From contig JAGPUW010000014.1 of NCBI GenBank assembly GCA_018069465.1, positions 1-64,000 on the forward strand: DNA of 64,000 nucleotides. The letters run 5' to 3'. Shown here one piece after another: positions 27,794-43,644 of the stretch. Numbering within the stretch: the stretch's first letter is position 1; every line of letters begins with the position of its first letter. The position numbers and the translations under genes are program-made. This DNA is from Gammaproteobacteria bacterium. Its GTDB lineage: Bacteria; Pseudomonadota; Gammaproteobacteria; Pseudomonadales; Porticoccaceae. The notes beneath the pieces are model-generated. The model was not told where the DNA came from. It did no database searches and saw only the letters and a program-made list of their open reading frames with translations.

Positions 27794-29146
27794 ATGTCGG
27801 ATTCTGACAACAAGAATATGAGTCAAGGCAGCGGGGGCTTGCTCCGCAGTAAGGCGATGCCCAGTTTAAAAACCCTGTCTGGCGAGGCTGAACCTCTCAA
27901 GGGTGGTGATCGCCGGGGCTTTTTAAAAGGCCTGCTGGCGATGACTGGGGCTGCCGCCACGGGGCAAGTTAGCGCGGTCACATCGCGGGGCAATTTGCCC
28001 CCCGAGGTGCCAAGTTGGACAAAGTCTCTGGGCCGAGGTGTGGTTAGCAAGCCCTATGGCACACCCTCTGTTTACGAAAAAGACGTGGTGCGGCGCACGG
28101 TGCCCTGGTTAACGGCTGAATCAATCTCCTCCATCAGCATGAGTCCGCTGCACGAATTGAAGGGCCTGATCACACCCAATGGTCTGGTTTTTGAGCGCTA
28201 CCACGCGGGTGTGCCGGAGATTGATCCCGAGCAGCACCGTTTGATGATTCACGGTCTGGTCGAGCGGCCGCTGATTTTTACCATGGAAGAGCTGGCGCGC
28301 TTCCCCAGTGTCTCTGAAATCAAATTTATTGAATGCCCCGCCAACGGTGGCATGGAGTGGAAGGGGCCACAGATGGAAGGCCTGCAGTTTACCCACGGCA
28401 TGCTGTCGTGTTGCGAGTGGACGGGGGTGCGCCTGTCGACCTTGCTGGCCGAAGTGGGGGTCAAGCCCGAGGGCAAATGGGTGCTGGCAGAGGGTGCCGA
28501 TGGCGCCGCAATGGCCCGTAGTATCCCCATTGAAAAAGCCCTCGACGATACCCTCGTCGTTTACGCCCAGAATGGTGAAGCGCTGCGCCCGGAGCAGGGC
28601 TATCCCGTGCGCTTGTTGAACCCCGGCTGGGAAGGCAATACCAGTGTTAAGTGGCTGCGCCGTCTTGAAATCGGCGACCAGCCCTGGCACATGCGCGAGG
28701 AAACCTCCAAGTACACTGACCTGATGGCCGATGGTCGGGCGCGAAAATTCACCTTCGTGCAGGAATGTAATTCAGTCATTACCTCCCCCTGCCCGGAGAA
28801 GCCCTGGCAAAACGCCGGCTGGTATGAAATTGAAGGTCTGGCCTGGTCTGGCCGAGGTGCTATTAAAGCTGTGGACATCTCTTTTGATGGCGGTGTCAAT
28901 TGGCTCAATGCGCCTCTCAAGGGCATGGTGATGGCGAAATCACTGACCCGCTTTGGCTATCGCTTTAAATGGCCGGGTGGGCCGCTGTTGTTGCAAAGCC
29001 GCGCGCTTGATGAAACCGGCTATGTGCAACCAACCTTGCGCCAGTTGCGAGAGCAGCGCGGCGTTAATTCCATCTATCACAAGAATGCCATTCACACCTG
29101 GCGTGTTGAAGCTGACGGGAGCGTACGCAATGTTCAGATTCCCTGA
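27794..29146 (+). CDS. soxC: Sulfane dehydrogenase molybdenum subunit SoxC
   Basis: 450 aa sulfite-oxidase-family molybdoprotein. A twin-arginine signal (DRRGFLKGLLAMTGAAA, about residues 39-55) sends it folded to the periplasm. Cys181 in FIECPANGG is the expected molybdenum ligand; ITSPCPEKPWQNAGWYEIEGLAWSG starts the dimerisation domain (given by its ends). SoxCD removes six electrons from the sulfane sulfur on SoxY, so thiosulfate can go fully to sulfate without sulfur globules. GAGGA lies 7 bases before the ATG. Overlaps soxD by 17 bases. Confidence 0.95.
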   Translation: MSDSDNKNMSQGSGGLLRSKAMPSLKTLSGEAEPLKGGDRRGFLKGLLAMTGAAATGQVSAVTSRGNLPPEVPSWTKSLGRGVVSKPYGTPSVYEKDVVRRTVPWLTAESISSISMSPLHELKGLITPNGLVFERYHAGVPEIDPEQHRLMIHGLVERPLIFTMEELARFPSVSEIKFIECPANGGMEWKGPQMEGLQFTHGMLSCCEWTGVRLSTLLAEVGVKPEGKWVLAEGADGAAMARSIPIEKALDDTLVVYAQNGEALRPEQGYPVRLLNPGWEGNTSVKWLRRLEIGDQPWHMREETSKYTDLMADGRARKFTFVQECNSVITSPCPEKPWQNAGWYEIEGLAWSGRGAIKAVDISFDGGVNWLNAPLKGMVMAKSLTRFGYRFKWPGGPLLLQSRALDETGYVQPTLRQLREQRGVNSIYHKNAIHTWRVEADGSVRNVQIP

Positions 29147-30182
29147 TTTACAGATCATAAAGCGTGTTGCTGCTGTGCTTACATTGGCAGGCGCAATGAC
29201 GTTATTGGGCTGTAGCGAAAAGGCCAGTAGTCCTGAAAAACAATCGGGCGCGGCAGGGCAAAAGCCATCGGGAGCATTGATGAAGGCAAGTGCAGATGGC
29301 GTGAAGCACGAGCTTTTCAGTGTAGGTCAGCCCGCGACGCAAGCACAGATTGAGGGGTGGGATATCGATGTCCGTCCCGATGGCCTGGGCTTGCCCGAGG
29401 GTGAGGGCTCGGTGGAAGATGGCGAGATGCTCTACGAAGATAAATGCGCCAGCTGCCACGGTACCTTTGGTGAGGGCGAGGGGCGCTGGCCGAAACTGGC
29501 CGGTGGCATGGGCACCTTGAGTCAGGAGCGCCCCGATAAAACCGTGGGTAGTTATTGGCCCTACGCCTCAACACTATGGGATTACATTCGTCGCGCTATG
29601 CCCTTTCCCGCGCCGCAATCCCTGGCCGTTGATGAGGTTTATGCCATCACCGCCTACGTGCTCAATCTCAATGATCTGGTCGATGACGACTTCGTGCTCA
29701 GTCGGGATAATTTCAACAGTATAAAAATGCCCAATAAAGATGGCTTTTTTATTGATGATCGCCCCGACGTAAAGAACCCCCGTTGTTTGAGTGGCTGCCT
29801 TGATCCGGCAACGATAAAGATTGTTGAAACAATTGCTGGGATAACGCCGACAGCGCATATCAAAGAAGGTGGCACCGATGCTCGTGCTTACAGCGAGGAG
29901 GAAGCTGGCGGTGACAACACAGAAGCTCAATCAGCCGGTAAAAGCGTACACGACAGTGCCTGCAAAATTTGCCACGGCAGCGGTGTCGCCGGGGCACCCA
30001 TTACCGGTAACAGCGACGATTGGCAGGCGCGAATAAAGCAGGATAAAGCACTTATTTATCAACATGCCCTCGAAGGATTTCAGGGTGAGAGTGGCGTGAT
30101 GCCTGCTAAAGGCGGGCAAACACAGCTCGATGATATTGCGGTTAAAGCCGCCGTGGATTATATGCTTGAGCAAAGCCATTAA
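29130..30182 (+). CDS. soxD: SoxD-type diheme cytochrome c, predicted lipoprotein
   Basis: 350 aa electron-accepting partner of SoxC. Two c-type heme sites: CASCH at 106-110 and CKICH at 278-282, the second in a c5-like domain. The N-terminus has a lipobox LLGC with Cys28 as the lipidation site, so the protein is probably membrane-anchored, unlike the soluble SoxD of Paracoccus. A long open frame extends upstream inside soxC, but the ATG at 29130 gives the signal peptide. Confidence 0.92.
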   Translation: MFRFPDLQIIKRVAAVLTLAGAMTLLGCSEKASSPEKQSGAAGQKPSGALMKASADGVKHELFSVGQPATQAQIEGWDIDVRPDGLGLPEGEGSVEDGEMLYEDKCASCHGTFGEGEGRWPKLAGGMGTLSQERPDKTVGSYWPYASTLWDYIRRAMPFPAPQSLAVDEVYAITAYVLNLNDLVDDDFVLSRDNFNSIKMPNKDGFFIDDRPDVKNPRCLSGCLDPATIKIVETIAGITPTAHIKEGGTDARAYSEEEAGGDNTEAQSAGKSVHDSACKICHGSGVAGAPITGNSDDWQARIKQDKALIYQHALEGFQGESGVMPAKGGQTQLDDIAVKAAVDYMLEQSH

Positions 30183-30227
30183 GGCTGGGAATGTGAAATC
30201 TTATGCCGGGGTTATGGGAGGAACAAC

Positions 30228-30593
30228 ATGCGTCTTTTACAAAATAAAGTGATAAAAAAAGTGACATTATTTATCGGCTTGCTGGCATCTGCTGTGGTAG
30301 CGCCGTGCTGGGCAGAGAGTACTGGGGTTGAAAAAGGCAAGGCTTTAACCTTCGATCGTAAAAAAGGTAACTGCCTCTCCTGTCATGTCATTGCTGGTGG
30401 CACCTTGATGGGCACCACAGCTCCGCCGCTGATACAAATGCAGGCACGCTTCCCCGATAAAGAAAAACTTTATGATCAAATATGGGATGCCAGAAAGCGC
30501 AACCCCAATACGATAATGCCGCCCTTCGGTAGTCATGGCATGCTTTCAAATGAAGAAGTGGATGCAGTAGTTGAATATTTATACACACTTTAA
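30228..30593 (+). CDS. soxX: Sulfur oxidation c-type cytochrome SoxX
   Basis: 121 aa monoheme cytochrome with a signal peptide (cleavage near A29), heme motif CLSCH at 49-53 and a candidate distal ligand Met97 in NTIMPPFG. SoxX pairs with SoxA to attach thiosulfate oxidatively to SoxY. A GGGAGGAAC ribosome binding site precedes the start. Confidence 0.94.
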   Translation: MRLLQNKVIKKVTLFIGLLASAVVAPCWAESTGVEKGKALTFDRKKGNCLSCHVIAGGTLMGTTAPPLIQMQARFPDKEKLYDQIWDARKRNPNTIMPPFGSHGMLSNEEVDAVVEYLYTL

Positions 30594-30637
30594 AAACCGT
30601 TTGTAAGCGATTTTTAAAGATGCTTGTAGGTGGAAAT

Positions 30638-31120
30638 ATGACAGTGGATGGACAAAGTATGAAGATGAATAGAAGACGTTTTTTAGGGGCTTTATTGAAA
30701 GGTTCAGCCTGTATTGCGGTGGCAACGAGCTTGCCTCGTTTGGCCTTTGCCGCCTGGAACGAAAAGGCCTTCAAGGCAGAAACGCTGGAAGGGGCCTTGA
30801 GCAATAAATACCCAGGGCTGGAAATTGTTGACAGCACAGCACTTAAATTAAAGGCGCCAGCCATTGCTGAAAATGGCGCGGTGGTGCCAGTCAGCGTTAA
30901 AACAGACTTGCCCGATGTGAAAAGTATTAGTTTGTTTGTTGAGAAAAACCCCTCTCCATTAGCCGCGACATTTCATCTGACGCCAGTCAATGTGGCCGAT
31001 GTGTCGATTCGACTTCGCATGGGCGAAACATCTAATTTGATTGCCGTGGTCGAGTCGGGTGGCAAGCTGCATCGTGCGCAGCAGGAAGTAAAAGTCACCA
31101 TTGGAGGCTGCGGCGGTTAA
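30638..31120 (+). CDS. soxY: Thiosulfate-carrier subunit SoxY
   Basis: 160 aa. Twin-arginine signal (NRRRFLGALL) and the diagnostic C-terminal swinging arm GGCGG with Cys158, to which sulfur intermediates are covalently bound. The ATG at 30638 follows AGGTGGA and is chosen over an ATG 18 bases upstream. The SoxZ partner is encoded 55 bases downstream and travels with SoxY through Tat. Confidence 0.95.
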   Translation: MTVDGQSMKMNRRRFLGALLKGSACIAVATSLPRLAFAAWNEKAFKAETLEGALSNKYPGLEIVDSTALKLKAPAIAENGAVVPVSVKTDLPDVKSISLFVEKNPSPLAATFHLTPVNVADVSIRLRMGETSNLIAVVESGGKLHRAQQEVKVTIGGCGG

Positions 31121-31175
31121 AGGCCCGTTGTATAAAGATTATTTTGGCGATGCCTAAACAGACAGGTAATGAGTA

Positions 31176-31475
31176 ATGAAAATTAAAGCAAAAGTTAAAA
31201 AAGATGTGACTAAAGTAAAAATGTTAATTAAACACGCTATGGAGACGGGACGGCGTAAAGATCAGGATGGCAATGTGATCCCCGGTCTCTATATTACGGA
31301 GGTGTCGGCCAGTCACAATGGCCAGCCCGTTTTTCATGCAGAAGTTGGGCAGGCCGTTTCCAAAGACCCCTATATTGCCTTTAGTTTTAAAGGTGGGGTG
31401 GCTGGTGACAAAATCGCAATTACCTGGATTGATAGCTCTGGTGCCACAGAAACTGGCGAAGCGGCCATTAAATAA
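31176..31475 (+). CDS. soxZ: SoxY-binding protein SoxZ
   Basis: 99 aa immunoglobulin-fold protein without a signal peptide, as expected for SoxZ exported with SoxY. Family features MLIKHAMETGRRKDQDG and PGLYITEVSASHNGQPVF. The start is preceded only by AGGTAATGAG. Confidence 0.94.
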   Translation: MKIKAKVKKDVTKVKMLIKHAMETGRRKDQDGNVIPGLYITEVSASHNGQPVFHAEVGQAVSKDPYIAFSFKGGVAGDKIAITWIDSSGATETGEAAIK

Positions 31476-31500
31476 GAGCAGACGGAAGAGGGGTTCTGAG

Positions 31501-32379
31501 ATGGGGCTTGTAAGGCACAAAATAAAGACGGGGATAATGTTGCTTGGCCTGTTCGTTTTCAGTTGTATGGCGAGCGCGGATGCTGGAGCTGAATCAGGGG
31601 TCGATTTTAAAGCCATGGTGCAGCAGGATATTCGCGATTTTCAGGCCTATTTTAAAAAACGCTTTTCAAGTGTTGAATTTAGTGAATATAAAAATGGTGT
31701 TTACGCCATTGATACTGCCTCCCGTGAGCAGTGGCTGGAAATGGAAGATTTCCCACCCTATGAATTCGCCGTCGATGAAGGCGAAGAATTATTTACAGCC
31801 CCCTTTACTAACGGCAAAACGTATACCGACTGTTTTGCTAACGGTGGTGAGGGGGTTCGGCAAAACTACCCCAACTTCGATAGTAAAAAAGGCGAAGTCA
31901 TAACCCTGGAGCTAGCGATAAACAATTGCCGGCAAGCGAATGGAGAGAAGCCTTTAGCGTATAAAAAAGGCCCTTTGGCAGCCTTGTCGGCCTATATGGC
32001 AAGCACCTCCGCAGGAAAAACCTTCGCGGTAGCCGTGCCCAATGAGGCGGCTTTTCAGGCTTATAAAGATGGCAAAAAGTTTTTTTATGCAAAGCGGGGG
32101 CAGCTAAATTTTTCCTGTGCAGATTGCCATATGCGTGTCGCGGGCCAGAAGTTACGTGCAGATATAACCAGTCCAGCATTGGGTCACCCGACGGGTTTTC
32201 CCGTGTATCGCTCTAAATGGGAAGAGATGGGCACCTTGCATCGCCGCTATGCTGGGTGCAATAAAAATATTCGCGCTAAGCCTTTGCCCGCCCAGGGTCG
32301 TGCCTATCGAAACCTTGAGTACTTTCAGTCAGTGATGAGTAATGGCCTGGAAATTAATGGCCCATCTTCGCGGAAATAA
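31501..32379 (+). CDS. soxA: SoxA, monoheme form of the SoxAX cytochrome
   Basis: 292 aa with a signal peptide (about residues 1-30). One CxxCH heme motif, CADCH at 206-210, and Cys253 in RRYAGCNKN, the position of the cysteine that is modified to persulfide and ligates the heme. The N-terminal heme of diheme SoxA is gone: Cys111 (TDCFANGG) and Cys143 (NNCRQ) remain, likely as a disulfide. The ATG at 31501 follows AAGAGGGG. Upstream in-frame starts lie within soxZ and are rejected. Confidence 0.94.
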   Translation: MGLVRHKIKTGIMLLGLFVFSCMASADAGAESGVDFKAMVQQDIRDFQAYFKKRFSSVEFSEYKNGVYAIDTASREQWLEMEDFPPYEFAVDEGEELFTAPFTNGKTYTDCFANGGEGVRQNYPNFDSKKGEVITLELAINNCRQANGEKPLAYKKGPLAALSAYMASTSAGKTFAVAVPNEAAFQAYKDGKKFFYAKRGQLNFSCADCHMRVAGQKLRADITSPALGHPTGFPVYRSKWEEMGTLHRRYAGCNKNIRAKPLPAQGRAYRNLEYFQSVMSNGLEINGPSSRK

Positions 32380-32422
32380 ATTCAATATGCCGGTGATGGC
32401 AAAAGTGAGTGGTGAGAAAGCT

Positions 32423-32731
32423 ATGAATAAATGTCGATTACTCTTTTTTATGGTCTTGAGTATTACTCTATTTTCATCGGGCAGTCTATATGCCGGTGCT
32501 GCTGTTGAGCCAATATTGGAGGATGCGCGAACGACGCTGAACAAAGCGGCCGCAAAGGGTTTTGAATGGACGACTACGCGCAAGCTTATTGAAGGCGCGG
32601 AAATAGCTCTGGCGGCAGGTGAAAAAGATAAAAGTCTTAAGTTAGCAAAAGCGGCTTTGAATGAGGCTGAAAAATCTCTAACCCAGGCTAACTATGCCGA
32701 GGCCCATTGGCGAGCTGGAATTCCTCTATAA
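32423..32731 (+). CDS. soxK: Small exported protein, probable SoxK (SoxAX-binding)
   Basis: 102 aa. Signal peptide (MNKCRLLFFMVLSITLFSSG, to about residue 24), then an alanine/lysine-rich helical protein with paired AEIALAAGEKDKSLKLAKAA and ALNEAEKSL segments and a C-terminal HWRAGIPL. Position between soxA and soxB and the helical, A-rich make-up match SoxK/SAXB, which stimulates SoxAX in Chlorobaculum-type systems. Assignment rests on context and general resemblance. Confidence 0.7.
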   Translation: MNKCRLLFFMVLSITLFSSGSLYAGAAVEPILEDARTTLNKAAAKGFEWTTTRKLIEGAEIALAAGEKDKSLKLAKAALNEAEKSLTQANYAEAHWRAGIPL

Positions 32732-32797
32732 CCCTCATCCTCTTTAATCCTCACTAATGCCAGTCATAAAAAGTCGATTTAATTTGCGGAGCCCAAG

Positions 32798-34540
32798 ATG
32801 AATATTGATCGCAGAGAGTTTTTGCGTTTACTCGGTTTCGCCAGTGCAGCGGGACTGTTGCCACTAAATAGTCGGGCGGCTAACGGCGATATTTATAATC
32901 TACCCACCACCGGTGATGTGAGGTTACTGCATATTACCGATACCCACGCGCAGCTTAAGCCTATTTATTTCCGTGAGCCCAGTGTCAATCTCGGCTTTCA
33001 TGATGCCCTGGGCAAACCACCCCACTTAACGGGTTTAAAGCTACTCGAGCATTTTAATATCGCACCAGGCTCCAGCCTGGCTCACGCTTTTACTTGTTTA
33101 AACTTTACGGAGGCCGCCAATAAATATGGCAAAGTCGGTGGTTTCTCTTATCTGAAAACCCTGGTTGATCGCTTGCGTGATGACTTTGGCGTCAATAAAA
33201 CCCTGTTGCTGGATGGCGGTGATACCTGGCAGGGATCGGGCACAGCACTGTGGACACGCGGCAAAGATATGGTCGAGGCCTGTAATCTACTCGGTGTCGA
33301 TGTAATGACGGGGCATTGGGAATTTACCTATCGCGATAGCGAAGTGCTGGAAAATATTGCCGCCTTTAACGGTGACTTCGTCGCGCAAAATGTCAAAGTG
33401 AAAGAGGATGCCTTATTCGACGGCTCCCCCGCCTACGATGAAGACAGCGGCCATGCACTGAAACCCTATGTAATAAAAAGCCTGGGATCCCGTCGCGTGG
33501 CAATCATTGGCCAGGCATTTCCCTATACGCCGGTGGCCAACCCATCACGCTTTATTCCCGACTGGACATTCGGGATTAACGACGGTGATTTACAGGAGCT
33601 GGTCGATGAAATTCGCAGCGCGGAAAAACCTGATGCGGTGATTGTACTGTCTCACAACGGTATGGATGTCGATCTTAAAATGGCTTCTCGCGTTACTGGT
33701 GTTGACGCCATTCTTGGCGGCCATACCCATGACGGCATCCCCGCACCGGTAGAAGTTAAAAACGCCAAAGGCATTACATTAGTGACCAATGCCGGTTCCA
33801 ATGGCAAATTCGTCGGTGTGCTAGATCTTGAGTTTGGCGCTCAGGGGGTGAGTGGCTATCACTATAAATTATTGCCAGTATTTGCCAATTTCCTCAAAGC
33901 CGATCCAGCGATGGCTGGCTATATAGAAACCATGCGCAAGCCCTGGCAGAGTAAGCTGGAAGAGCCATTGGCTGTGGCCGGTGAATTACTTTATCGCCGG
34001 GGCAATTTTAATGGCACCTTCGATCAGGTGATTTGTGATGCTTTACGCGCGGTGAATGATGCGCAGATTTCTCTTTCCCCCGGCTTCCGCTGGGGTACGT
34101 CCGTGCTACCGGGCCAGTCGATCACTATGGAGCATGTTCTCGATCAAACTTGTATTACCTATCCCGAAACCTATGTGCGAGAAATGTCGGGTGGTGATTT
34201 AAAAGCGATTCTTGAAGATGTGGGCGATAATTTATTTAACCCCGACCCCTACTATCAGCAAGGCGGTGACATGGTGCGCCTCGGCGGGCTTGATTATCGT
34301 TTTGATCCATTGCAGACAATGGGTCAACGGGTGAGTGAGATGACCCTGGATAATGGCCAGAAAATAGAAGCGGGTAAAAACTACAAAGTAGCTGGCTGGG
34401 CGACGGTAGGTAGCCAGTCACCGGGTGAGCCCATATGGGACACGGTGGCGACATACTTGCGCGATATTAAAACGGTGAAGATTAAAAAACTCAATACCCC
34501 TGTGTTAATTAATGCCGCGAATAACCCTGGCCTGGTGTAA
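32798..34540 (+). CDS. soxB: Thiosulfohydrolase SoxB
   Basis: 580 aa dimanganese hydrolase of the 5'-nucleotidase family that releases sulfate from SoxY-bound thiosulfonate. Tat-type start (DRREFLRLLGFASAAG). Metal ligands: Asp48 and His50 in ITDTHAQ, LLDGGDTWQGSG, the GHWEF catalytic segment, VLSHNG and GGHTHDG. A hallmark gene for thiosulfate oxidation. Confidence 0.97.
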   Translation: MNIDRREFLRLLGFASAAGLLPLNSRAANGDIYNLPTTGDVRLLHITDTHAQLKPIYFREPSVNLGFHDALGKPPHLTGLKLLEHFNIAPGSSLAHAFTCLNFTEAANKYGKVGGFSYLKTLVDRLRDDFGVNKTLLLDGGDTWQGSGTALWTRGKDMVEACNLLGVDVMTGHWEFTYRDSEVLENIAAFNGDFVAQNVKVKEDALFDGSPAYDEDSGHALKPYVIKSLGSRRVAIIGQAFPYTPVANPSRFIPDWTFGINDGDLQELVDEIRSAEKPDAVIVLSHNGMDVDLKMASRVTGVDAILGGHTHDGIPAPVEVKNAKGITLVTNAGSNGKFVGVLDLEFGAQGVSGYHYKLLPVFANFLKADPAMAGYIETMRKPWQSKLEEPLAVAGELLYRRGNFNGTFDQVICDALRAVNDAQISLSPGFRWGTSVLPGQSITMEHVLDQTCITYPETYVREMSGGDLKAILEDVGDNLFNPDPYYQQGGDMVRLGGLDYRFDPLQTMGQRVSEMTLDNGQKIEAGKNYKVAGWATVGSQSPGEPIWDTVATYLRDIKTVKIKKLNTPVLINAANNPGLV

Positions 34541-34546
34541 CACCTG

Positions 34547-35494
34547 ATGACTAGCCGAGGATTCGTTAGGTATCTTCACGCGGCCATTTTTTTATATAGC
34601 CTACTGGCGACGACCTCTGTCTTTGCCGAACCCTACCCCATTAAACTGATTAAAGTCGCGGATAATGTCTATTCCGCTATCGGTGAAACTCAGCCGCCGA
34701 ACTACGAAAATGGCGGCCACAATAATAACTTGAGTTTTATTATCGGTAGTGAGAGTGTGCTCGTCGTCAATGGTGGCGATAGTTATCTGCTGGCGAAAGC
34801 CTTTCATCAGGCAATAAAAAGAAAAACCAAACAAGCCGTTCGCTGGGTCGTCAATGAAAATGGCCAGGGCCATGCCTTTCTCGGTAACAGTTACTGGTCG
34901 CAGCAGGGGGTAGCCATTCTCGCCCAGAAAGATGCGGCCCATGAAATTGCACAACACGGTCGCGCGGTGCTGGCTAGAATGCTGGTGCGCAATAAAGATA
35001 AAGGCGAAGGCACTTTTGTTGCCCCGCCGACGGAAACCTTCGACAAGCTCAAGCATATTTCGTTGGGGAATATTGATATTGAGGTCATCAGCTTCGGTGC
35101 GGCTCACTCGCCGGGTGATATTTCTGTGTGGTTGCCAAAGCAATCCATCCTTATTGTTGGCGATATGGCTTTTCATCAGCGTTTACTCGGGGTTTTCCCC
35201 GATACGAATACCGCTGAGTGGATTGTTTCTTTTGAAAAAATGGCAGCCCTACAGCCACGTATTGTCATCCCCGGCCACGGTGCTCCAACTACCCTCGCGG
35301 AGATAAGTACCTGGACTCTGGGCTATCTGAAGTTCCTGCGTGCAGAAGTGGCTAAGATTTTAGACGATGACGGTGAGCTGGATGAGGCCTATAACATTGA
35401 CCAATCGGCCTACTCCCAGCTTGATGTCTTTGATGAGCTAGCCGCAAAAAATGCGGGTCGTGTGTTTCAGGAAATGGAGGCAGAGTCCTTCTAA
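34547..35494 (+). CDS. SoxH-like metallo-beta-lactamase-fold protein, degenerate metal site
   Basis: 315 aa with a signal peptide ending near VFA (about residue 27). The usual HxHxDH motif is replaced: the aligned segment N103-ENGQGHAFLG-N114 has Asn105, Gln107, His109 and Ala110 at the four ligand positions. Later ligands remain: His187 (AHSPGD), Asp206 (VGDMAF) and His244 (PGHGAP). SoxH-like proteins accompany sox clusters but have no firm function and are dispensable in Paracoccus. Six bases after soxB; its TAA overlaps the next ATG by one base. Confidence 0.82.
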   Translation: MTSRGFVRYLHAAIFLYSLLATTSVFAEPYPIKLIKVADNVYSAIGETQPPNYENGGHNNNLSFIIGSESVLVVNGGDSYLLAKAFHQAIKRKTKQAVRWVVNENGQGHAFLGNSYWSQQGVAILAQKDAAHEIAQHGRAVLARMLVRNKDKGEGTFVAPPTETFDKLKHISLGNIDIEVISFGAAHSPGDISVWLPKQSILIVGDMAFHQRLLGVFPDTNTAEWIVSFEKMAALQPRIVIPGHGAPTTLAEISTWTLGYLKFLRAEVAKILDDDGELDEAYNIDQSAYSQLDVFDELAAKNAGRVFQEMEAESF

Positions 35495-36402
35495 TGGCAG
35501 GCTGGCTTGTAAAAGGTTTCAGCCACCGGCGACTGACGGATTTTTTGTTGGTCAAGGCCCTGTTGTTATCGCTGTTTTCTTTCGCCGACCCGGTGCAAAT
35601 AAACCTCGCTGAGTTGCGGCTCAACGCTAATTTAATGGCAGTGGAGGATAGGCAAAAAACCGCTTTTCTTATTGTCCATGGCACTTGGGCACACGGGGCA
35701 ATGGAGTTGCCAGTCACTTTGCAAAGTCTACTGGACGATGAGGGCTATGCCAGCCTCGCTATTACTTTGAGCCTGGGTATTAATAATCGCCGGGGTTTTT
35801 TCGACTGCAAATCGCCCATTGTTCAGAGTCACGAGGCGGCCGTTGAAGAAATTCATGCCTGGTATTTATTTATGCGTGAGCAGGGTTATTCGAAAGTGGT
35901 ATTAATTGCCCACTCACGCGGCGGCGCACAGGCGGCGCTTTATCAGCAGAGCTATCCACAGGATGAGCTTGCTGCTCTGGTGCTTATCGCGCCAATGACC
36001 TGGCGGGAAGATCTTGAAGCTAAAGCCTATAAGGAAAAATTTGGCCTGGAGCTTCACGGCTTGCTGGCCGCCGCCGAGCAATATCGACAGGAGGGCAGGG
36101 CTTTATTTACGCCACCTGGCCTGCTCTATTGTGAAAAGACAGCCGCAAGTCCCGCTGCTTTTATGAGTTATTATTCTTCAATACCGAAAAAAAATACGCC
36201 GGCATTGCTTCAGAAAATTAATATCCCTACTGTGGTTTATTTGGCTTCGCAAGATCCGCTGAGTGAAAGCTTCGCTGAACAGCAGGCCTTGCTCGTTGAA
36301 AAAAAGAATATTTTTATTGTCACGATTGATGGTGCAGGTCATTTCTTTCGTGACCTTTATAGCGATGAATTGATTGAAGATCTTTTGCCGCGCTTGCCAT
36401 GA
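35494..36402 (+). CDS. Alpha/beta hydrolase of unknown role in the sox cluster
   Basis: 302 aa with an N-terminal hydrophobic segment (about residues 15-31, signal or anchor). Oxyanion HGTW at 62-65, nucleophile Ser141 in AHSRGG, candidate Asp254 (SQDPLS) and His283 (GAGHFF) form a complete triad. Resembles DUF3530-like/serine hydrolases. Coupled to the SoxH-like gene (TAATG) and to the thioredoxin gene (ATGA), so it belongs to the operon, but I know of no such enzyme in the Sox pathway. Confidence 0.8.
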   Translation: MAGWLVKGFSHRRLTDFLLVKALLLSLFSFADPVQINLAELRLNANLMAVEDRQKTAFLIVHGTWAHGAMELPVTLQSLLDDEGYASLAITLSLGINNRRGFFDCKSPIVQSHEAAVEEIHAWYLFMREQGYSKVVLIAHSRGGAQAALYQQSYPQDELAALVLIAPMTWREDLEAKAYKEKFGLELHGLLAAAEQYRQEGRALFTPPGLLYCEKTAASPAAFMSYYSSIPKKNTPALLQKINIPTVVYLASQDPLSESFAEQQALLVEKKNIFIVTIDGAGHFFRDLYSDELIEDLLPRLP

Positions 36403-36953
36403 ACAGCTTTATTACGGCAGAAGGTATACTCAAGCCTGCAGATCGACAAGCCTGTTCCTTTGGGGTTCGTTTTGCGGGACTGTTTTTACTGTCGTTCTTG
36501 TCCTTAGCTCTTGCCAGTAATGTGGCCTTGGCCATTGAAGTGAGCATGCCCCTTGCCAGTAACCTTGAAGCGGATAGCAAAATAGTGGCGGGTACAAAAA
36601 CTGTCATTATTCTTTATTTTTCTGCCCCAGATTGTGTCTATTGCATGAAGCTGGAAAAGGCGGTGCTAGAGCCGATGTTGAGAAGTGGCGATTATGATGA
36701 ACAGGTTTTACTGCGAAAAATAGATTGGCGAAGTGCAGGGCAAGTAAATGATTTTTCTGGCCGAAGGGTGTCATTAAATACCCTGGCCGATCATTATGAG
36801 GTGAAAGTGACGCCGACCCTGGTGTTTGTTGATGCGGGTGGAAGAGAGGTCGCGCCGCGCATACTCGGCTTTCGATCGGCTGATTTTTTCTGGTATTACC
36901 TGGATCAGCGTATAGATTTGTCGGGTCTTCAAATAAGTGGGGAAAGTCGCTGA
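36399..36953 (+). CDS. soxW: SoxW-like periplasmic thioredoxin
   Basis: 184 aa. Signal or membrane segment at about 24-46 (FAGLFLLSFLSLALA), then a thioredoxin fold with CVYC at 79-82 and the cis-proline VTPTLVF. SoxW-type thioredoxins keep the SoxY cysteine reduced using electrons from SoxV/CcdA; no such donor gene lies in the window. Overlaps the hydrolase gene by 4 bases and ends the cluster. Confidence 0.85.
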   Translation: MNSFITAEGILKPADRQACSFGVRFAGLFLLSFLSLALASNVALAIEVSMPLASNLEADSKIVAGTKTVIILYFSAPDCVYCMKLEKAVLEPMLRSGDYDEQVLLRKIDWRSAGQVNDFSGRRVSLNTLADHYEVKVTPTLVFVDAGGREVAPRILGFRSADFFWYYLDQRIDLSGLQISGESR

Positions 36954-36973
36954 GGCCTGGGTTTCATCGCCCA

Positions 36974-37004
36974 TAAAAAAGACCGCTCGATGCGGCCATT
37001 TTTA
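36974..37004 (+). terminator. Probable terminator after soxW
   Basis: GACCGC/GCGGCC stem (one mismatch) with an A-run before and a T-run after, 20 bases beyond the soxW-like stop. The mismatch makes it weaker than the others in the window. Confidence 0.65.
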
Positions 37005-37029
37005 TGCACTGCCTTGTTATTTTTGTGCC

Positions 37030-37263
37030 TCAAAAGAGAATCTGCTCTTCCCGGCTCTGGGCCATTGCTTGCTCAGCTTTGCAGGCCGAAAACAGCAGGG
37101 CGTGCACTAAGGCGCTGCCCCAGGCGAGTACGGCAAATGCAAATATGAGCGCTGAGTTTTGTGCGGCGCCGAGGGCAAAAGTTGCGACAAGAGCTGGAAT
37201 AAAGAGCGTTACACTGATGATGATAAATTTTTGACAGGGTTTTAGTTGCGGGAGTTGTTCCAT
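37030..37263 (-). CDS. Small inner-membrane protein, unknown
   Basis: 77 aa with two predicted membrane helices (FIIISVTLFIPALVATFALG and SALIFAFAVLAWGSALVHAL) and a charged C-terminus. I do not recognise the family. The start is well supported: AAGGAAGG lies 6 bases before the ATG on the minus strand. It stands alone between the sox cluster and an acyl-CoA synthetase. Confidence 0.7.
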   Translation of the reverse strand: MEQLPQLKPCQKFIIISVTLFIPALVATFALGAAQNSALIFAFAVLAWGSALVHALLFSACKAEQAMAQSREEQILF

Positions 37264-37454
37264 GGGTCACCTTCCTTAGTGATGTTGTGGCCTGGTTGAT
37301 GTTTGTCAGGCCATTATTGTTGGAGCAACAGAAAGGTAACACCGGCGCTCGTTTTTAACCGAACACTAGAGGTGTGGATGTGACGGCTTAGGCAATTTTG
37401 TAGGCTGCAGTTCTCAATCGTTTTTCTTTTGTCAGCGTTTGCTGATGGCGGAAT

Positions 37455-37486
37455 ATAAAAAAACCCGCATTACGCGGGTTTTTTAT
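37455..37486. terminator. Terminator after the acyl-CoA synthetase gene
   Basis: ACCCGC/GCGGGT stem, loop ATTAC, with A-run and T-run on either side, 20 bases beyond the minus-strand acyl-CoA synthetase stop. Confidence 0.88.
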
Positions 37487-37505
37487 GGGGCAAAGTCACT
37501 AACGT

Positions 37506-39044
37506 TTATTTAGCCGCGACAGTAATTCCGCCGAACATTTTTCGCAGTTCGGTTTTAAGAATTTTACCGGCACCTGACTTGGGCAGCTCGTCAATGAAGT
37601 GAGCTGTTTTCGGCACTTTAAAGCGTGCCAGTCTCTCGTTGCAGAAGGCAATCAGTTCGTCTTCTGTCAAGCTGGCGCCTTCTTTGAGGACGATGCAGGC
37701 CGCAGGCACTTCCTGCCACTTGTCGTGAGGGATGCCAATCACGGCAACTTCGGCGACAGCGTCATGCAGGTAGATGGCTTGCTCAAGCTCGGCGGGATAG
37801 ACGTTCTCACCACCGCTGATAATCATATCTTTCTTGCGGTCGACGACGTAGAGGTAGCCCTCGTCATCGAGATAGCCAAGGTCGCCACTGTGGTACCAGC
37901 CACCTTTAAGCGCTTCAGCTGTTGCCTCGGGCTTGTTCCAGTAGCCCTTGAGCATATTGGGACCGCGGCAGAGGATTTCGCCGACATGGGTTTGGGGTAA
38001 GTCCTGGCCATTATCGTCGATAATGCGAATGTCGACGTTAAAGGCGGGGTAGCCGACAGAGCCGTTTTTACGCTCGCAGTCCCACTTGTCGAGAATGGCC
38101 ACAAGGGGCGCCATTTCTGTCATGCCGAAACCTTCGTAAATTGACAGGTTGCGGGCCTGGAAGTACTTGAGAATATTCAGCGGCGTTGGTGCAGCACCGG
38201 TCATCAAGAACTCAACAGAGCTTAAGTCGAAGTCTTTTTTCTCCAGCTCCTCAACAATCATTTGCCACATAGAGGGCACGCAGAACAGGCCGGTGAGCTT
38301 TTCTTTCTCGGTTAATTCGAGCACCGCGACGGGGTCAAAGGCGGGCAGTGTTACCACGCAACCGCCCTGATAGAGGGTCGGTAATACCGTGACGCTGGTG
38401 CCACCGATGTGGAACATCGGCGTTACGCCGAGGGCGATGGTGTCAGCATGAATCGGCAGACGCTGGGTGGTGTGATGGACGTTGGCCATGTGGTTGGCGT
38501 GAGTGAGCATCGCGCCCTTGGGTCGGCCCGTGGTGCCGGAGGTGTACATCAGCAGGGCGACGTCGTCGGCACCTACCCGGGCGTTAATTTCTTCGTCAGA
38601 GGCGGCATCGAGCAAGGCTTCGTACTCGGCATCGTCATCGCAGGTGGCGCTGCGGCCGCAGTAGACGGTCTTGTTAAAGTTGACGACCTTGGCCAAGCCC
38701 TCTGCCAGATTGGTAAACTCATCGTGGTAGAAGAAGACGCTGGCGCCGGAATCTTCAACGATGTATTCGATCTCGGGCACTGTCAGGCGGAAGTTAATGG
38801 GCAAGTAAATGGCACCGAGTTTGGCGACGGCGAAAATTAATTCCAGTTGCTCGTGGCCGTTTTGCAGCAGTGAGCAAACGCGGTCGCCGGGGCGTACACC
38901 GCTGTCGCGCAGAGCATTGGCCAGTCGGTTGCAGCGGCGGTTGAGTTCCTTGTAGGTAAAGCGCTTGTGGCGATCAACCACGGCCAGCCTTTGGCCAGAA
39001 ATCATTTCGCGCTTAGTGAGCCAGTATCCCAAACCTTGATCCAT
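37506..39044 (-). CDS. Acyl-CoA synthetase (AMP-forming)
   Basis: 512 aa ANL-superfamily ligase. P-loop YTSGTTGRPKGAM near residue 168, GFGMTEMAPL, adenylate motif YHSGDLGYLDDEG and the C-terminal catalytic lysine in KSGAGKILKTELR. It activates a carboxylic acid, probably a medium- or long-chain or aromatic acid, as acyl-AMP then acyl-CoA; the substrate cannot be read from sequence. GAGAGG ribosome binding site. A TetR-type palindrome lies 62 bases upstream. Confidence 0.92.
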   Translation of the reverse strand: MDQGLGYWLTKREMISGQRLAVVDRHKRFTYKELNRRCNRLANALRDSGVRPGDRVCSLLQNGHEQLELIFAVAKLGAIYLPINFRLTVPEIEYIVEDSGASVFFYHDEFTNLAEGLAKVVNFNKTVYCGRSATCDDDAEYEALLDAASDEEINARVGADDVALLMYTSGTTGRPKGAMLTHANHMANVHHTTQRLPIHADTIALGVTPMFHIGGTSVTVLPTLYQGGCVVTLPAFDPVAVLELTEKEKLTGLFCVPSMWQMIVEELEKKDFDLSSVEFLMTGAAPTPLNILKYFQARNLSIYEGFGMTEMAPLVAILDKWDCERKNGSVGYPAFNVDIRIIDDNGQDLPQTHVGEILCRGPNMLKGYWNKPEATAEALKGGWYHSGDLGYLDDEGYLYVVDRKKDMIISGGENVYPAELEQAIYLHDAVAEVAVIGIPHDKWQEVPAACIVLKEGASLTEDELIAFCNERLARFKVPKTAHFIDELPKSGAGKILKTELRKMFGGITVAAK

Positions 39045-39105
39045 AACAACCTCTCTATTCTCTAGTTTTAACGTAATAAAAAATGTGGGTGTTTCACTTT
39101 TTAGA

Positions 39106-39119
39106 TGACTGATCGGTCA
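39106..39119. promoter_or_regulatory. Palindromic operator-like site
   Basis: TGAC-TGATCG-GTCA, which also reads CTGA-TCGG-TCAG one base in. Its size and symmetry fit a TetR-family operator, and the neighbouring minus-strand gene encodes an acyl-CoA synthetase, a common target of such repressors. No regulator gene is adjacent. Inferred. Confidence 0.45.
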
Positions 39120-39282
39120 GCTAAAAGGCGGCCAAGGCTAACAAGAGCCAGTCGTCTTGGCAAGTATGACAAGACCTTTACAATTGTCTGTGGGGAACTC
39201 GCTGAGTTTGGCGCAATCTGTTCGCGACGCTGTGAGCCGTTGTATACTTTCCCTACACCCATTCCGAGGCAGAGAATAGCAA

Positions 39283-39693
39283 GTGGAGCACGTACTTGAA
39301 AAGCCGCTTTATAAAATAGCGCGCGTTGGACTGGTTTTTTTATTGTTCTCGGTTGCCTGGGCCTGTTTGCAGGCGCCGGGGCCAGACGATACACCGTGGT
39401 TTATCGGCGCCGATAAAATTATTCACCTCAGCACTTATGCCCTGCTTTATATTTGTGCCTGGCTGGCGTTTCCGGGTGCTTTTTTGAGCTGGACACTGCA
39501 CGGCAGTTTGCTGGCTTACGGTTTGATGATTGAAGGTCTACAAAGTCTCACCAGTTATCGCTCCGCCGAGCTTGCCGATATGCTGGCCAACGCCACTGGC
39601 CTCGGCCTGGGCTGCTTGCTGCTGTCTCTGGTGGCGGGGCGCCTGGTGTTCATCCATCAGTACCGCGCCGCTTATGTGAGGCTGACATCATGA
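39283..39693 (+). CDS. VanZ-like membrane protein
   Basis: 136 aa with about four hydrophobic segments (VGLVFLLFSVAWACLQ, then STYALLYICAWLAF, GSLLAYGLMIEGLQ and GLGLGCLLLSLVAG). GADKIIHLSTYALL and EGLQSLTSYRSAELADMLAN are typical of the VanZ-like family, which has no settled function apart from teicoplanin tolerance in enterococci. GTG start behind GAGGCAGAGAA. It overlaps the next gene by ATGA. Confidence 0.85.
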   Translation: MEHVLEKPLYKIARVGLVFLLFSVAWACLQAPGPDDTPWFIGADKIIHLSTYALLYICAWLAFPGAFLSWTLHGSLLAYGLMIEGLQSLTSYRSAELADMLANATGLGLGCLLLSLVAGRLVFIHQYRAAYVRLTS

Positions 39694-40469
39694 GTATTGA
39701 CTGGAACTCGACACAGGCGGCTATCTGGCGACCGGCCAGTGCCCAGTTGCGCGCCGTGCGGCGGCTCGATAGCGTGCGCTTTGATGAACTGCTCGGCATC
39801 GAGCGCCAATGCGCCGCCTTTAAAAACAATATTGAAGCCTTTTTACGCGGCGAGAGGGCCAATAATATGCTGCTGTGGGGCAGTCGCGGCACCGGTAAAT
39901 CTTCGTTGATTAAAGCAGCGCTGAACCACTACGGCCCCCAGGGTTTGCGGGTGATTGAAATCGATAAAGACGATCTCGCCAATCTTTGCGAGGTGGTTGA
40001 TGAGCTCCACGAGCTGCCCCAGCGGTTTATTATCTTCTGCGACGACTTGTCTTTTGATGAAGGCGAGACTGCCTATAAGCACTTAAAAAGTGTGTTGGAG
40101 GGCTCGATTGAGTTGCCGCCCGAAAATGTACTGGTCTGCGCTACCTCGAATCGCCGCCACATTATTACCGAGCACAACAGTGATAACAGCGGTGTCGATT
40201 TGATCAATGGTGAGCTGCACTACGGCGATACGGTCGAGGAGAAGCTCTCTCTGGCCGATCGCTTTGGCCTGTGGCTGGCCTTTCATCCTAATAACCGTGC
40301 GCAGTATCTGGCCATCGTCGACAGTTTGTTTGTCGGTTTTAGTGGCGATAGAGAGGCCCTGCATCTGTCGGCCAAGCAATTTGCCATGACCCGAGCCTCG
40401 AAAAGTGGCCGCACCGCGCGGCAATTTTGGCTGCAGTGGCGGGCCGCAGACGAGTCGTCTGTGCTTTAG
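39690..40469 (+). CDS. DUF815-family AAA+ ATPase
   Basis: 259 aa. Walker A GSRGTGKS at 64-71 and Walker B FIIFCDDLSFDEGE near 112-125; VLVCATSNRRHII is the sensor-1 region. The DUF815 family is widespread and uncharacterised. Translationally coupled to the VanZ-like gene. Its stop lies 7 bases from the end of the convergent acyltransferase gene, with no obvious terminator between them. Confidence 0.9.
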   Translation: MSIDWNSTQAAIWRPASAQLRAVRRLDSVRFDELLGIERQCAAFKNNIEAFLRGERANNMLLWGSRGTGKSSLIKAALNHYGPQGLRVIEIDKDDLANLCEVVDELHELPQRFIIFCDDLSFDEGETAYKHLKSVLEGSIELPPENVLVCATSNRRHIITEHNSDNSGVDLINGELHYGDTVEEKLSLADRFGLWLAFHPNNRAQYLAIVDSLFVGFSGDREALHLSAKQFAMTRASKSGRTARQFWLQWRAADESSVL

Positions 40470-40476
40470 TGCGGGC

Positions 40477-41403
40477 CTAATAAATCTTCTTTTCACCCTC
40501 GGGGCGAGTTTTAAAGCGCTTGTGTAGCCAGAAATAGTCTTCCGGTTGCTTGCGGATACTGGCTTCCAGCCAGTCGCTCCAGCGCTGGGTGTCGGCGACG
40601 TCATCCCCGGAGGGGAAGTTTTCCAGCATCGGCTCGATTTCAATATCACAGCGACCACCCTCTCGGCGGGCAATATTTAAAGTCAGCACATTGGCCCCGG
40701 CGATAGCCGCGTATTGGGGTATCGCAGTAATCGTCGAGGTTTGGATACCAAAGAAGGGGATGAATACGCTGCGTCTTTTGCCAAAATCTTGATCCGGCAC
40801 AATCACCACTACGCCCTGCTTTTTCAGCTGGCTGAGCATCTCGGGGATTTCTTTGCGGTGAATGGGGGTAATCGGGTATTTGCGTGCTGCACGCTGATAA
40901 AGCTGTGCTTCCAATACCGGATTATCCATTCGCCGATAAACAATATGGTAGGGCAGCAGCTGGGTAAGTTGTGCGAAGCCCAGCACGAAGCCGTTAACGT
41001 GCCCCGCCAAAATGATCAGTGGTTTGCCGCTGTCGAGGGCCTTGCGCAAGTTCTCCTCGCCACTGATATTGCCTCGCTCCAGCAAGTTTGCTGGTGGGTT
41101 CCAGATGAAATCCAGCAAGTCAAAAAGAAGAAGAATGGTCGAGGCCAGATTTTTTTCTGCCAGCGCCAGCTGCTCTTGTTTTGACAGTTCGGGAAAGCAC
41201 AATTCGATATTGCGGCGAATGGTGCTGCTGCGCGCTGATGAAACCTTCATTAACAGCCGCGCCAGCCCTCTCGATAAGCTGCGCTGCAAGCCCCCGGGTA
41301 GTTTTGCCAGCATCCAGCTTAGGCCGACCACTAGCCAGGAGGGCCAGAAGCGGGGTGCGTAGAGAGAGCCGTGTACCCGACCGCTTAAATTGCGTTTACC
41401 CAT
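40477..41403 (-). CDS. LpxL/HtrB-family lipid A acyltransferase-like protein
   Basis: 308 aa, one N-terminal membrane segment (FWPSWLVVGLSWMLAKLPGG) and the family core with PDQDFGKRRSVFIPFFG. LpxL/LpxM transfer secondary acyl chains to Kdo2-lipid A at the inner membrane using a His-x4-acid dyad. Here the motif reads H135-VNGF-V140: the acid is a valine. Acyltransferase activity is therefore doubtful, or another residue substitutes. It is the only clear lipid-A acyltransferase relative in the window. Confidence 0.85.
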   Translation of the reverse strand: MGKRNLSGRVHGSLYAPRFWPSWLVVGLSWMLAKLPGGLQRSLSRGLARLLMKVSSARSSTIRRNIELCFPELSKQEQLALAEKNLASTILLLFDLLDFIWNPPANLLERGNISGEENLRKALDSGKPLIILAGHVNGFVLGFAQLTQLLPYHIVYRRMDNPVLEAQLYQRAARKYPITPIHRKEIPEMLSQLKKQGVVVIVPDQDFGKRRSVFIPFFGIQTSTITAIPQYAAIAGANVLTLNIARREGGRCDIEIEPMLENFPSGDDVADTQRWSDWLEASIRKQPEDYFWLHKRFKTRPEGEKKIY

Positions 41404-41462
41404 AAAGCCTCTGGCTCCTGTTGCTGATGTGAGTTTTTGTTACTAGTCGCAGTGGCAAGCGA

Positions 41463-42476
41463 TTAGTCGGCCAGCTTGACCAGCATTTTGCCCAGGTTGG
41501 CGCCGTTGAAGAGGCCGAGAAAAGCTTCCGGCGCCTTGTCGACGCCCTCGTACACCGTCTCCTGCCAGTCAATTTTGCCCTCGCTGCGCCACTTGGCCAT
41601 GTCGGCCGTAAACGCCTGGTGGTGCTCGGCCATATAGTCGAGTACCACAAAGCCTTTCATGGTGACGCCGAGGGCGACGACTTTAAACAGATTCTTTACG
41701 CCGTGGCGTTTTTCCGGTGCCTCGTTGTAGTCTTCAATGGTGCCACAAAGAATGGCCCGGCCATTTTTACGCATGCTCAGCAGCGCGCCGTCGAGTTGAG
41801 AGCCACCGACATTGTCAAAAAACAGGTCGATGCCCTTGGGGCACAGCGCGGCGAGCTTGGCGGCGAAGTCGGCCTCGGTTTTGTAATTAAATGCGGCATC
41901 AATTTTAGCGGTGTTTAATAACCACTCGACCTTGGCATCTGAGCCAGCGCTGCCAACCACGGTGCAGCCCAGGGCTTTGGCAATTTGACAAACCAGCGAG
42001 CCCACCGCACCACCGGCACCGGAAACATAAACGGTGTCGCCAGCCTTGGCCTCACCGAGAATTTTGGTGCCTACATAGGCGGTGATGCCGGGCATGCCGA
42101 GAATGCCGAGGTAGTCCTGGGGGGCAATGGTCGAGGTATCGCGGATGCCCAAACCCTTGCCGCTAGACACAAAGTACTCGCGCCAGCCATTCATGCTTTC
42201 AACGTGGGTGCCGACGGGCAGCTTGGGGTTGTTTGATTTCTCTACCACACCAATGGCGCCGCCTTCGAGCACATGGTCGAGCTGAAAGGGCGGGATGTAG
42301 CTTTTAACGTCGTTCATGCGTGGCCGCATATAGGGATCGACCGACATCCACAGGTTTTTGACCAATACCTGGCCGTCTTTCAGCTCTTCGCCCAATTCGT
42401 TTTCGACCAGTTTGAAACAGTCGAGGCTGGGCTGGGGCGAGGGGCGTTGGGCGAAGTGAATTTCTCGATTAATCAT
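41463..42476 (-). CDS. NADP-dependent oxidoreductase, MDR superfamily (CurA/PTGR type)
   Basis: 337 aa zinc-free medium-chain reductase/dehydrogenase. WMSVDPYMRPRM near residue 43, the nucleotide loop SGAGGAVGSLVCQIAK and FDNVGGSQLDGALL mark the curcumin/prostaglandin-type alkenal reductases. It probably reduces activated double bonds. The ATG at 42476 is chosen over one 6 bases upstream because AGGA is then correctly spaced. Confidence 0.9.
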   Translation of the reverse strand: MINREIHFAQRPSPQPSLDCFKLVENELGEELKDGQVLVKNLWMSVDPYMRPRMNDVKSYIPPFQLDHVLEGGAIGVVEKSNNPKLPVGTHVESMNGWREYFVSSGKGLGIRDTSTIAPQDYLGILGMPGITAYVGTKILGEAKAGDTVYVSGAGGAVGSLVCQIAKALGCTVVGSAGSDAKVEWLLNTAKIDAAFNYKTEADFAAKLAALCPKGIDLFFDNVGGSQLDGALLSMRKNGRAILCGTIEDYNEAPEKRHGVKNLFKVVALGVTMKGFVVLDYMAEHHQAFTADMAKWRSEGKIDWQETVYEGVDKAPEAFLGLFNGANLGKMLVKLAD

Positions 42477-42496
42477 GGGCATTCCTGGTCGGCGTA

Positions 42497-42540
42497 GTTA
42501 ATTAGATAGTTGATTAGGTGGTTGATTGGTTAATTAATTA
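42497..42540. repeat. Short degenerate AT-rich tandem repeat
   Basis: Four units of the theme GTTGATTAG: GTTAATTAGATA, GTTGATTAGGTG, GTTGATTG, GTTAATTAATTA. It lies 20 bases before the oxidoreductase start, on the promoter side. Could be slippage-prone spacing or protein half-sites. Confidence 0.6.
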
Positions 42541-42597
42541 TTGGGCTAACTTGTCGATTGGCGCTCGGCCCGGCGCGGCAAGCGGCTTTGTCTGTTA

Positions 42598-43644
42598 TTA
42601 CTCGCGCAGAGCCAGGCGCAGATTACTGGGGTGAATGGGGTTGGTGCCGCTCATGCTTAGCACCATGCTGGTGAGCTCGTCCCAGGGCTGGGCGTCGCGC
42701 ATGCCTTTTACCGCGCGATCGACACCACCGGCCTGGCGCAGCAGCATAGTGAGCTGGGCGGGCCGAGTGCGGCGCAGGGCTTTACGTACCAGTGGCAGAT
42801 GCTTGTCCCAGACCCGCAGTTGGCGCAGGGCATTGTCGATAGACTCGCCGTTCGCCGTCTGTTCGCTGGCTTTAATCAAGATGCGCAATTCTCGGGTCAG
42901 CGCCCAGAGAATGGCGATGGGCTCCGTGCCCTCGTCGCGCAGGCCGCGCAGGGTGCGAATCGCGCCGACGCTGTCGCCGTCGAGAATGCGATCGACCATG
43001 GTAAAGACATTGTAGCGGGCGCTGTCGGTCACCACGGATGACATTGTTTCGCTGTCGATTTCGCCCTCGGGGGCGAGCAATTTGAGCTTTTCAATTTCTT
43101 GAATGGCGGCCAGTAGATTGCCCTCAACGCGCTCGGCGAGTACTTCAATGGCCTGATGATTGGCGTTGATCCCGGCACGTTCGAGGCGGTGTTTGATCCA
43201 CTGTGGCATTTGCGCGGCAGTGACGGGCCACACTTGCACAATGGCACCGTGTTGGTCGAGGGCTTTAAACCACTTGCTGTTTTGCGCCGACTTGTCGAGC
43301 TTGGGCAAAATGATCAGCAGCAGGTTGTCGGCATTGATATTGGCGCAGTAGTCCTGAAAAAACGCGCCGCCCTCGCGCCCCGGTTTGCCGGAGGGGATGC
43401 GCAGCTCGAGTATTTTCTTATCGGCAAACAGCGACAGACTGTTGGCTTCCGTCAGCACTTGCTGCCAGTCGAAGCGGGCTTCGGCGTTGAACAATTCGCG
43501 CTCGGTAAAGCCGTTTTCTCGGGCCTGCCCGCGTATCGCGTCGGCCACTTCCTGAGCCAGCAAGGGCTCATCGCCGCTGATGACATAGATCGCTTCGAGG
43601 CCCTGTTGCAGCTGCCTGGAGAGTTTGTCAGGGTGCAGGCGCAT
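42598..43644 (-). CDS. holA: DNA polymerase III subunit delta
   Basis: 348 aa clamp-loader delta subunit, which opens the beta clamp. N-terminal AAA+-like domain with YVISGDEPLLAQEVADAIR and LLIILPKLDKSAQNSKWFKAL (given by LIILPKLDK), helical C-terminal collar with ALTRELRILI. In the leuS-lptE-holA order typical of gammaproteobacteria; lptE ends 6 bases before it. Confidence 0.95.
   Translation of the reverse strand: MRLHPDKLSRQLQQGLEAIYVISGDEPLLAQEVADAIRGQARENGFTERELFNAEARFDWQQVLTEANSLSLFADKKILELRIPSGKPGREGGAFFQDYCANINADNLLLIILPKLDKSAQNSKWFKALDQHGAIVQVWPVTAAQMPQWIKHRLERAGINANHQAIEVLAERVEGNLLAAIQEIEKLKLLAPEGEIDSETMSSVVTDSARYNVFTMVDRILDGDSVGAIRTLRGLRDEGTEPIAILWALTRELRILIKASEQTANGESIDNALRQLRVWDKHLPLVRKALRRTRPAQLTMLLRQAGGVDRAVKGMRDAQPWDELTSMVLSMSGTNPIHPSNLRLALRE

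Follow-up and report, generated by a model that had tools for sequence, protein, structure and literature searches.

A Sox-linked, putatively exported alpha/beta-hydrolase as a probable optional accessory of bacterial sulfur oxidation

Gene content of the sox operon

The window, i.e. the whole stretch of 64,000 nucleotides that was analyzed, contains a run of eleven genes on the plus strand, of which the tenth encodes a putatively exported alpha/beta-hydrolase (HYD; 35494..36402). The run opens with soxC (27794..29146; TIGR04555, 660 bits, cut-off 420) and a soxD-like cytochrome c gene (29130..30182), which encodes two cytochrome c domains and also follows soxC in relatives. Downstream lie soxX (30228..30593; TIGR04485, 94.1 bits, cut-off 61), soxY (30620..31120; TIGR04488, 169.7 bits, cut-off 125), whose product ends in GGCGG, soxZ (31176..31475; TIGR04490, 122.9 bits, cut-off 76) and soxA (31501..32379; TIGR04484, 236.9 bits, cut-off 110). 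The small gene that comes next (32423..32731), which we take to be soxK, has homologues that in relatives also stand between soxA and soxB, and its product gave no Pfam match at E 0.001. It is followed by soxB (32798..34540; TIGR04486, 837.6 bits, cut-off 550).

Only 6 bases separate the end of soxB from a gene for a SoxH-related protein of the metallo-beta-lactamase fold (MBL; 34547..35494; Lactamase_B, 2.7e-8), so that the immediate neighbors of HYD are the MBL gene and, closing the run, a gene for a thioredoxin-like, probably exported protein with a CVYC motif (TRX; 36399..36953; Thioredoxin_2, 2.4e-10). The overlaps on both sides of HYD, by which the initial annotation in part tied the enzyme to sulfur oxidation, are real: TAATG is shared with the MBL gene (35492-35496) and ATGA with the TRX gene (36399-36402). 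SoxB, encoded two genes upstream of HYD, is likewise a hydrolase of the same pathway, in which it acts on SoxY-bound sulfonate, but it consists of metallophosphatase/5'-nucleotidase domains and is unrelated to HYD.

The hydrolase and its fold

HYD encodes 302 aa followed by a stop codon, and its own genome holds a single copy. Membership of the alpha/beta-hydrolase superfamily follows from the Pfam score (Abhydrolase_6, 2.4e-13, 51.7 bits, cut-off 26.3), the fold matches given below, and the order and conservation of Ser, Asp and His. No NCBIfam family scored above its curated cut-off; the listing held only PRK10749 (17.3 bits, cut-off 362) and PRK14875 (15.2 bits, cut-off 307). DUF3530 was rejected as the family of HYD at 19.6 bits, below its cut-off of 29.8.

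Conservation was counted in an alignment of 53 homologous sequences. The catalytic triad named in the initial annotation stands: the nucleophile Ser141 (codon 35914..35916, motif HSRGG) and His283 (36340..36342, motif GHFFRDLY) are invariant (53/53), and Asp254 (36253..36255) is found in 51/53 sequences, the two exceptions (L153 and L155) each having an Asp one column off. Other columns that never vary include His62, Gly63, Arg99, Glu119, Trp123, His140, Gly143, Ala281 and Phe285, while Arg142 is conserved in 49/53. Two cysteines that were absent from the initial annotation, Cys105 (35806..35808) and Cys213 (36130..36132), are also both invariant (53/53), which in an exported protein suggests a Cys105-Cys213 disulfide.

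The proposed export signal is likewise supported. A hydrophobic stretch and Ala31 mark residues 1-31 (35494..35586) as a probable Sec signal peptide that ends near Ala31, a position occupied by Ala in 41/53 rows. By a simple rule made for this analysis 43/53 rows are signal-like, and by eye the ten failing rows resemble effects of start-site choice or alignment columns.

The AlphaFold2 model built from the 53 homologues (mean pLDDT 93.1, pTM 0.88) was compared with known structures using Foldseek and VIA-align. Among the 50 matches listed, the neighbors are feruloyl/cinnamoyl esterases, PET46 and monoglyceride lipases, which points to a carboxyl-ester hydrolase fold for the modeled protein. 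The esterases GthFAE (7wwh), LJ0536 (3pf8), Est1E (2wtm) and PET46 (8b4u) share this fold with HYD at VIA Z scores of 23-24 across about 230-250 residues, and monoglyceride lipases (e.g. 3hju) at Z scores of about 20-21, with identities to HYD of 11-20% among the same 50 matches. The likeness to the feruloyl/cinnamoyl esterases is one of fold only: HYD differs from them in its export signal, the two invariant cysteines, the HSRGG and HFFRDLY motifs and the linkage to sox. HYD apparently represents an undescribed, Sox-dedicated family with a known fold. Among the papers listed in searches of mostly openly accessible literature, titles and abstract beginnings gave no account of such a Sox hydrolase; one listed SAR11 paper contains both soxB and 'beta hydrolase' (PMC3160333).

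The neighboring thioredoxin and metallo-beta-lactamase genes

The CxxC motif of TRX is invariant in 21 sequences, and its model (pLDDT 86.8) shows a thioredoxin fold with general thioredoxins and DsbD/DsbH-like domains as best structural matches. With SoxS and SoxW, the periplasmic thioredoxins of sox clusters, TRX has a signal-like N-terminus, the CxxC motif and encoding among sox genes in common. Its profile also gave a weak match (4.8e-4) to the PDB sequence 3d4t/3dml, a 'putative uncharacterized protein' that we take to be SoxS. In place and kind TRX therefore resembles SoxS/SoxW and is a candidate for such a protein. SoxS is described in the accessible text of two papers as reducing false mixed disulfides, which keeps SoxYZ active (PMC10451225), and as binding SoxY (PMC11582611).

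MBL shares a signal-like N-terminus and sox adjacency with SoxH and with the SoxH-like metallohydrolases of quinoprotein relay systems (TIGR04558, TIGR04559), but stays below the curated cut-offs of both families (TIGR04559, 144.5 bits, cut-off 280; TIGR04558, 129.6 bits, cut-off 300). The usual metal motif of the fold is HxHxDH; in MBL and seven aligned relatives it is replaced by NENGQGH or a variant thereof (8/8 sequences), which means either an unusual metal site or none. SoxH itself is called only a putative hydrolase in the accessible part of a published account (PMC10045233).

Co-occurrence with SoxB

The distribution of HYD was compared with that of SoxB in three samples. For the order, 390 genomes were drawn evenly, HYD homologues were accepted at E ≤ 1e-5 and SoxB above its curated cut-off. 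HYD was present in 29 genomes, SoxB in 39 and both in 25 (one-sided Fisher test, 1.8e-25; 1.5e-24 when the window's own genome is excluded). Four genomes have HYD with SoxB falling short of the cut-off: in G273, SoxB lies in pieces on two contigs, G387 is an assembly of 410 contigs, G436 is 72% complete, and in G413 the HYD match itself is weak (L088, 2.3e-6) and the family motifs are absent. The last match was omitted from the alignments and is still counted among the 29.

For the phylum (398 genomes, HYD at E ≤ 1e-20), HYD was found in 6 genomes and SoxB in 60, and all six HYD genomes have SoxB (P 9e-6; 6e-5 without the window's own genome); single misses are possible in these counts, as scoring took in at most five HYD candidates from each genome of the phylum and, for SoxB in the order and phylum alike, at most three candidates in most genomes. 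A wider collection of contigs was searched with a profile of one short motif, which gave at least 61 loci, a sample; a search of the same collection with the single sequence gave no HYD relative. Among the matches listed from the profile search, 45 of 50 further HYD genomes have SoxB above the cut-off. As for the five exceptions, SoxB is in two pieces in G493 and a piece at a contig start in G500, G521 has a weak SoxB match only, and G488 (1.4 Mb) and G525 have none. The bearers among these listed matches include Thioalkalivibrio, Thiothrix, Sedimenticola, Magnetovibrio and Ferrovibrio.

The reverse does not hold. At the limits used, no HYD match was obtained in 14/39 SoxB genomes of the order and 54/60 of the phylum; the pathway thus operates without HYD. 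A core Sox enzyme is expected in every SoxB genome, which is not the case for HYD, as these counts and the genome G089 (see below) demonstrate. It is accordingly very improbable that HYD performs a core step alternative to SoxB, the cleavage of an S-S or sulfonate bond. The near-exclusive presence with SoxB would agree with such a role, whereas nearly every genome with HYD retains SoxB, and HYD is missing from many genomes with SoxB; moreover, we know of no serine esterase that cleaves S-S or sulfonate bonds.

Pairwise distances of HYD and SoxB correlate (Mantel test, r 0.65, n 26), a value that is confounded by species descent. Across 25 relatives, identity to the window's protein reaches at most 46% for HYD and up to 73% for SoxB; HYD thus evolves faster, which fits an accessory.

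Genomic context of the homologues

Genomic context was scored for 77 clear HYD loci, made up of 27 from the order and 50 among the matches listed from the contig profile search. Five duplicates (L136, L137, L141, L142 and L154) were removed before this count, and L156-L161 were excluded as weak. At 30/77 listed loci, which belong to Gamma- and Alphaproteobacteria, the fetched stretch includes a sox gene. A TRX profile match lies within 300 bp of HYD at 35/77; both are found at 23/77, and TRX without sox at 12/77. Of the 27 loci in the order, 18 include sox in the stretch and 24 show TRX no more than 300 bp away; at two of the nine that lack sox, the stretch is cut short by the end of the contig. 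For the 50 listed contig-search loci, sox was present at 12 and absent at 38, some of the latter on short contigs.

Where sox genes are near, the arrangements differ. HYD directly follows soxB in L042, L062 and L063, and MBL-HYD-TRX lies downstream of soxB in the window, L101 and L102. In L069, L135 and L138, HYD-TRX stands ahead of soxC; in L071 and its relatives the pair is one gene away from soxB; in L072 and L074 HYD is convergent with soxB; and in L145, L147 and L148 it adjoins soxAZYX. HYD is near soxB or soxX in L118, L130 and L134, two of which (L118 and L134) carry alphaproteobacterial names. In G839, which belongs to another class, HYD is found downstream of soxXYZABC (L178), and on a megaplasmid of Indioceanicola profundi it is the last gene of a run soxA/X-Y-Z-B-C-D-TRX-HYD (L181). 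The L071 locus is also that of strain LSUCC0096 (L137), in which the hydrolase-thioredoxin pair is likewise one gene from soxB, and this isolate grows on thiosulfate according to the accessible part of its description (PMC8269220).

Several further features of these loci were recorded. Within one family of the order, L071 and the loci related to it have a gene for a HupE/UreJ-like membrane protein that separates TRX from soxB; beyond HYD they have genes that by eye resemble those of molybdenum cofactor synthesis. A small DUF302-like protein recurs beside HYD or TRX in L062, L063, L072 and L074 (172 aa in L074, where DUF302 scores 20.2 bits, below its cut-off of 23). In L105, L113, L071 and L066, rhodanese-domain genes are found a few kb or less from HYD, at some of these loci away from sox. 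Multiple HYD copies occur as three in tandem in L119 (7990-10801) and at two places in G755 (G755:C15; L176 and L180).

A neighborhood search had been proposed as a check on the link to sulfur oxidation. With homologues near sox at 30/77 listed loci and in several unrelated layouts, the search speaks for this link, and the homologues are not scattered without relation to sox, despite the 38 of 50 listed contig-search loci at which the fetched stretch showed no sox gene. Together, co-occurrence and, in part, position support the tie of HYD to sulfur oxidation.

The initial annotation had gone further and suggested that HYD hydrolyzes an extracytoplasmic organosulfur ester or thioester and thereby supplies Sox with a sulfur compound. 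A serine esterase fold with an export signal would suit this, as would the optional presence among Sox organisms, which is what a substrate-broadening enzyme would show, and the sox-unlinked locus L109 has a gene for an extracellular solute-binding protein upstream. At 14 sox-less loci, however, no organosulfur gene recurred among 20 annotated neighbors. These are mostly housekeeping genes (EPSP synthase, cytidylate kinase, SHMT, RecA, GidA, ABC), and some gave no match; the others encode rhodanese domains (L105 and L113), an FAD oxidoreductase in Thiothrix (L112) and the solute-binding protein at L109. The recurrent partner is a thioredoxin and not a transporter, and HYD occurs in Thioalkalivibrio and Thiothrix, which are known for inorganic sulfur. 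Because the family is common to specialists of inorganic sulfur and has no recurrent organosulfur gene among these 20 neighbors, we consider organosulfur feeding improbable. Thioester chemistry as such is possible for HYD and is read here as deblocking rather than feeding.

The HYD-TRX pair is kept together even away from sox (order loci L064-L068, L070 and L075), which together with the invariance of Cys105 and Cys213 would also agree with a TRX that serves HYD itself. TRX would then form or reduce the Cys105-Cys213 bond and place HYD under redox control that follows the periplasmic thiol state, and the substrate would be something other than SoxY, e.g. a lipid or some other envelope ester encountered as sulfur is oxidized. 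Against this, 42/77 listed loci have no TRX match within 300 bp, and G089 retains TRX without HYD, so TRX has another client there. We regard such redox control as unlikely, though less so than organosulfur feeding.

Loss and decay of the hydrolase gene

The genus of the window offers natural experiments in gene loss. Among the seven genomes of this genus that were compared, SoxB occurs only in the window's own genome (G000) and G089, and SoxA likewise. G090 (82% complete) is syntenic with the window at 17817-26805 and 37457-45204; between these flanks (26805-37457 of the window) the sox genes are deleted (L089; G090:C74, 9346-10735), and the remnants are an MBL fragment followed by a frame-shifted, stop-bearing HYD and TRX in the original order. 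In G089, at the same site, an intact soxCDXYZAKB is followed by TRX (L173; G089:C24, 8594-10977), with neither MBL nor HYD between soxB and TRX and no HYD match in the whole genome. A complete sox operon without HYD means that HYD is not a needed Sox step.

Decay was also seen elsewhere. In the Magnetovibrio bin G525, which has no SoxB match, HYD is interrupted by two in-frame stops and also changes frame (L146, 9989-10737), which may stem from assembly error, as the genome is a bin. In G225 (99% complete), intact soxB and TRX stand next to a HYD copy that is truncated and has changed frame (L087; G225:C6, 9814-10309), and HYD has a frame change in Thioalkalivibrio ALE14, where SoxB is present (L139). 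These two broken copies demonstrate that decay of HYD is not confined to genomes without SoxB. Overall, 73 of the 77 listed copies match 240 or more of the 294 profile positions within a single open frame; one of the other four is cut by a contig end (L078) and three are broken (L087, L139 and L146).

That HYD is a mere passenger, functionally unconnected with Sox, is hardly credible. Many homologues do not adjoin sox, G089 lacks the gene and the copy beside soxB in G225 is broken, as would be expected of a passenger. The association in the order, phylum and contig-search samples, the several unrelated sox layouts and the near full length of almost all listed copies argue against it.

Discussion

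HYD adjoins sox in unrelated lineages and is largely restricted to genomes with SoxB, as befits a Sox accessory. As it accompanies sox, yet sox persists without it, HYD is very probably an optional accessory linked to the Sox system.

What it does there can be given with far less assurance. Our best explanation overall, which we put forward tentatively, is that an exported serine hydrolase helps Sox by deblocking its carrier in concert with a thioredoxin. HYD would reach the periplasm by secretion and there hydrolyze, through an acyl-enzyme on its serine, ester or thioester-type adducts that block the exposed carrier cysteine of SoxY or a similar periplasmic thiol. The neighboring thioredoxin would then reduce mixed disulfides, by which the carrier would return to its active thiol. 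Cys105 and Cys213 probably form a disulfide, which may either stabilize the cap or be acted on by the thioredoxin in its turn. Since the cycle would halt at a carrier bearing the wrong modification, an optional enzyme of repair agrees with the occurrence of HYD in many Sox bacteria but not in all of them. That a blocked carrier is the substrate of HYD is a possibility we hold slightly more loosely still: we know of no acyl block on SoxY. The housekeeping neighbors at some of the listed sox-less loci count against a Sox helper as such.

Taken one step further, a serine hydrolase acting with a thioredoxin, and sometimes with a SoxH-like protein, to repair or unload SoxYZ would be an enzyme activity of the Sox pathway that was previously undescribed, a proposal that is doubtful at present. 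If true, it would mean that the SoxYZ carrier is subject to a modification of the ester or thioester type, which to our knowledge is part of no Sox model. Such models cover SoxXYZABCD, and several accessory genes are left unexplained. A hydrolase family that tracks SoxB in two classes of Proteobacteria therefore offers a testable handle on a part of thiosulfate oxidation that has not been modeled.
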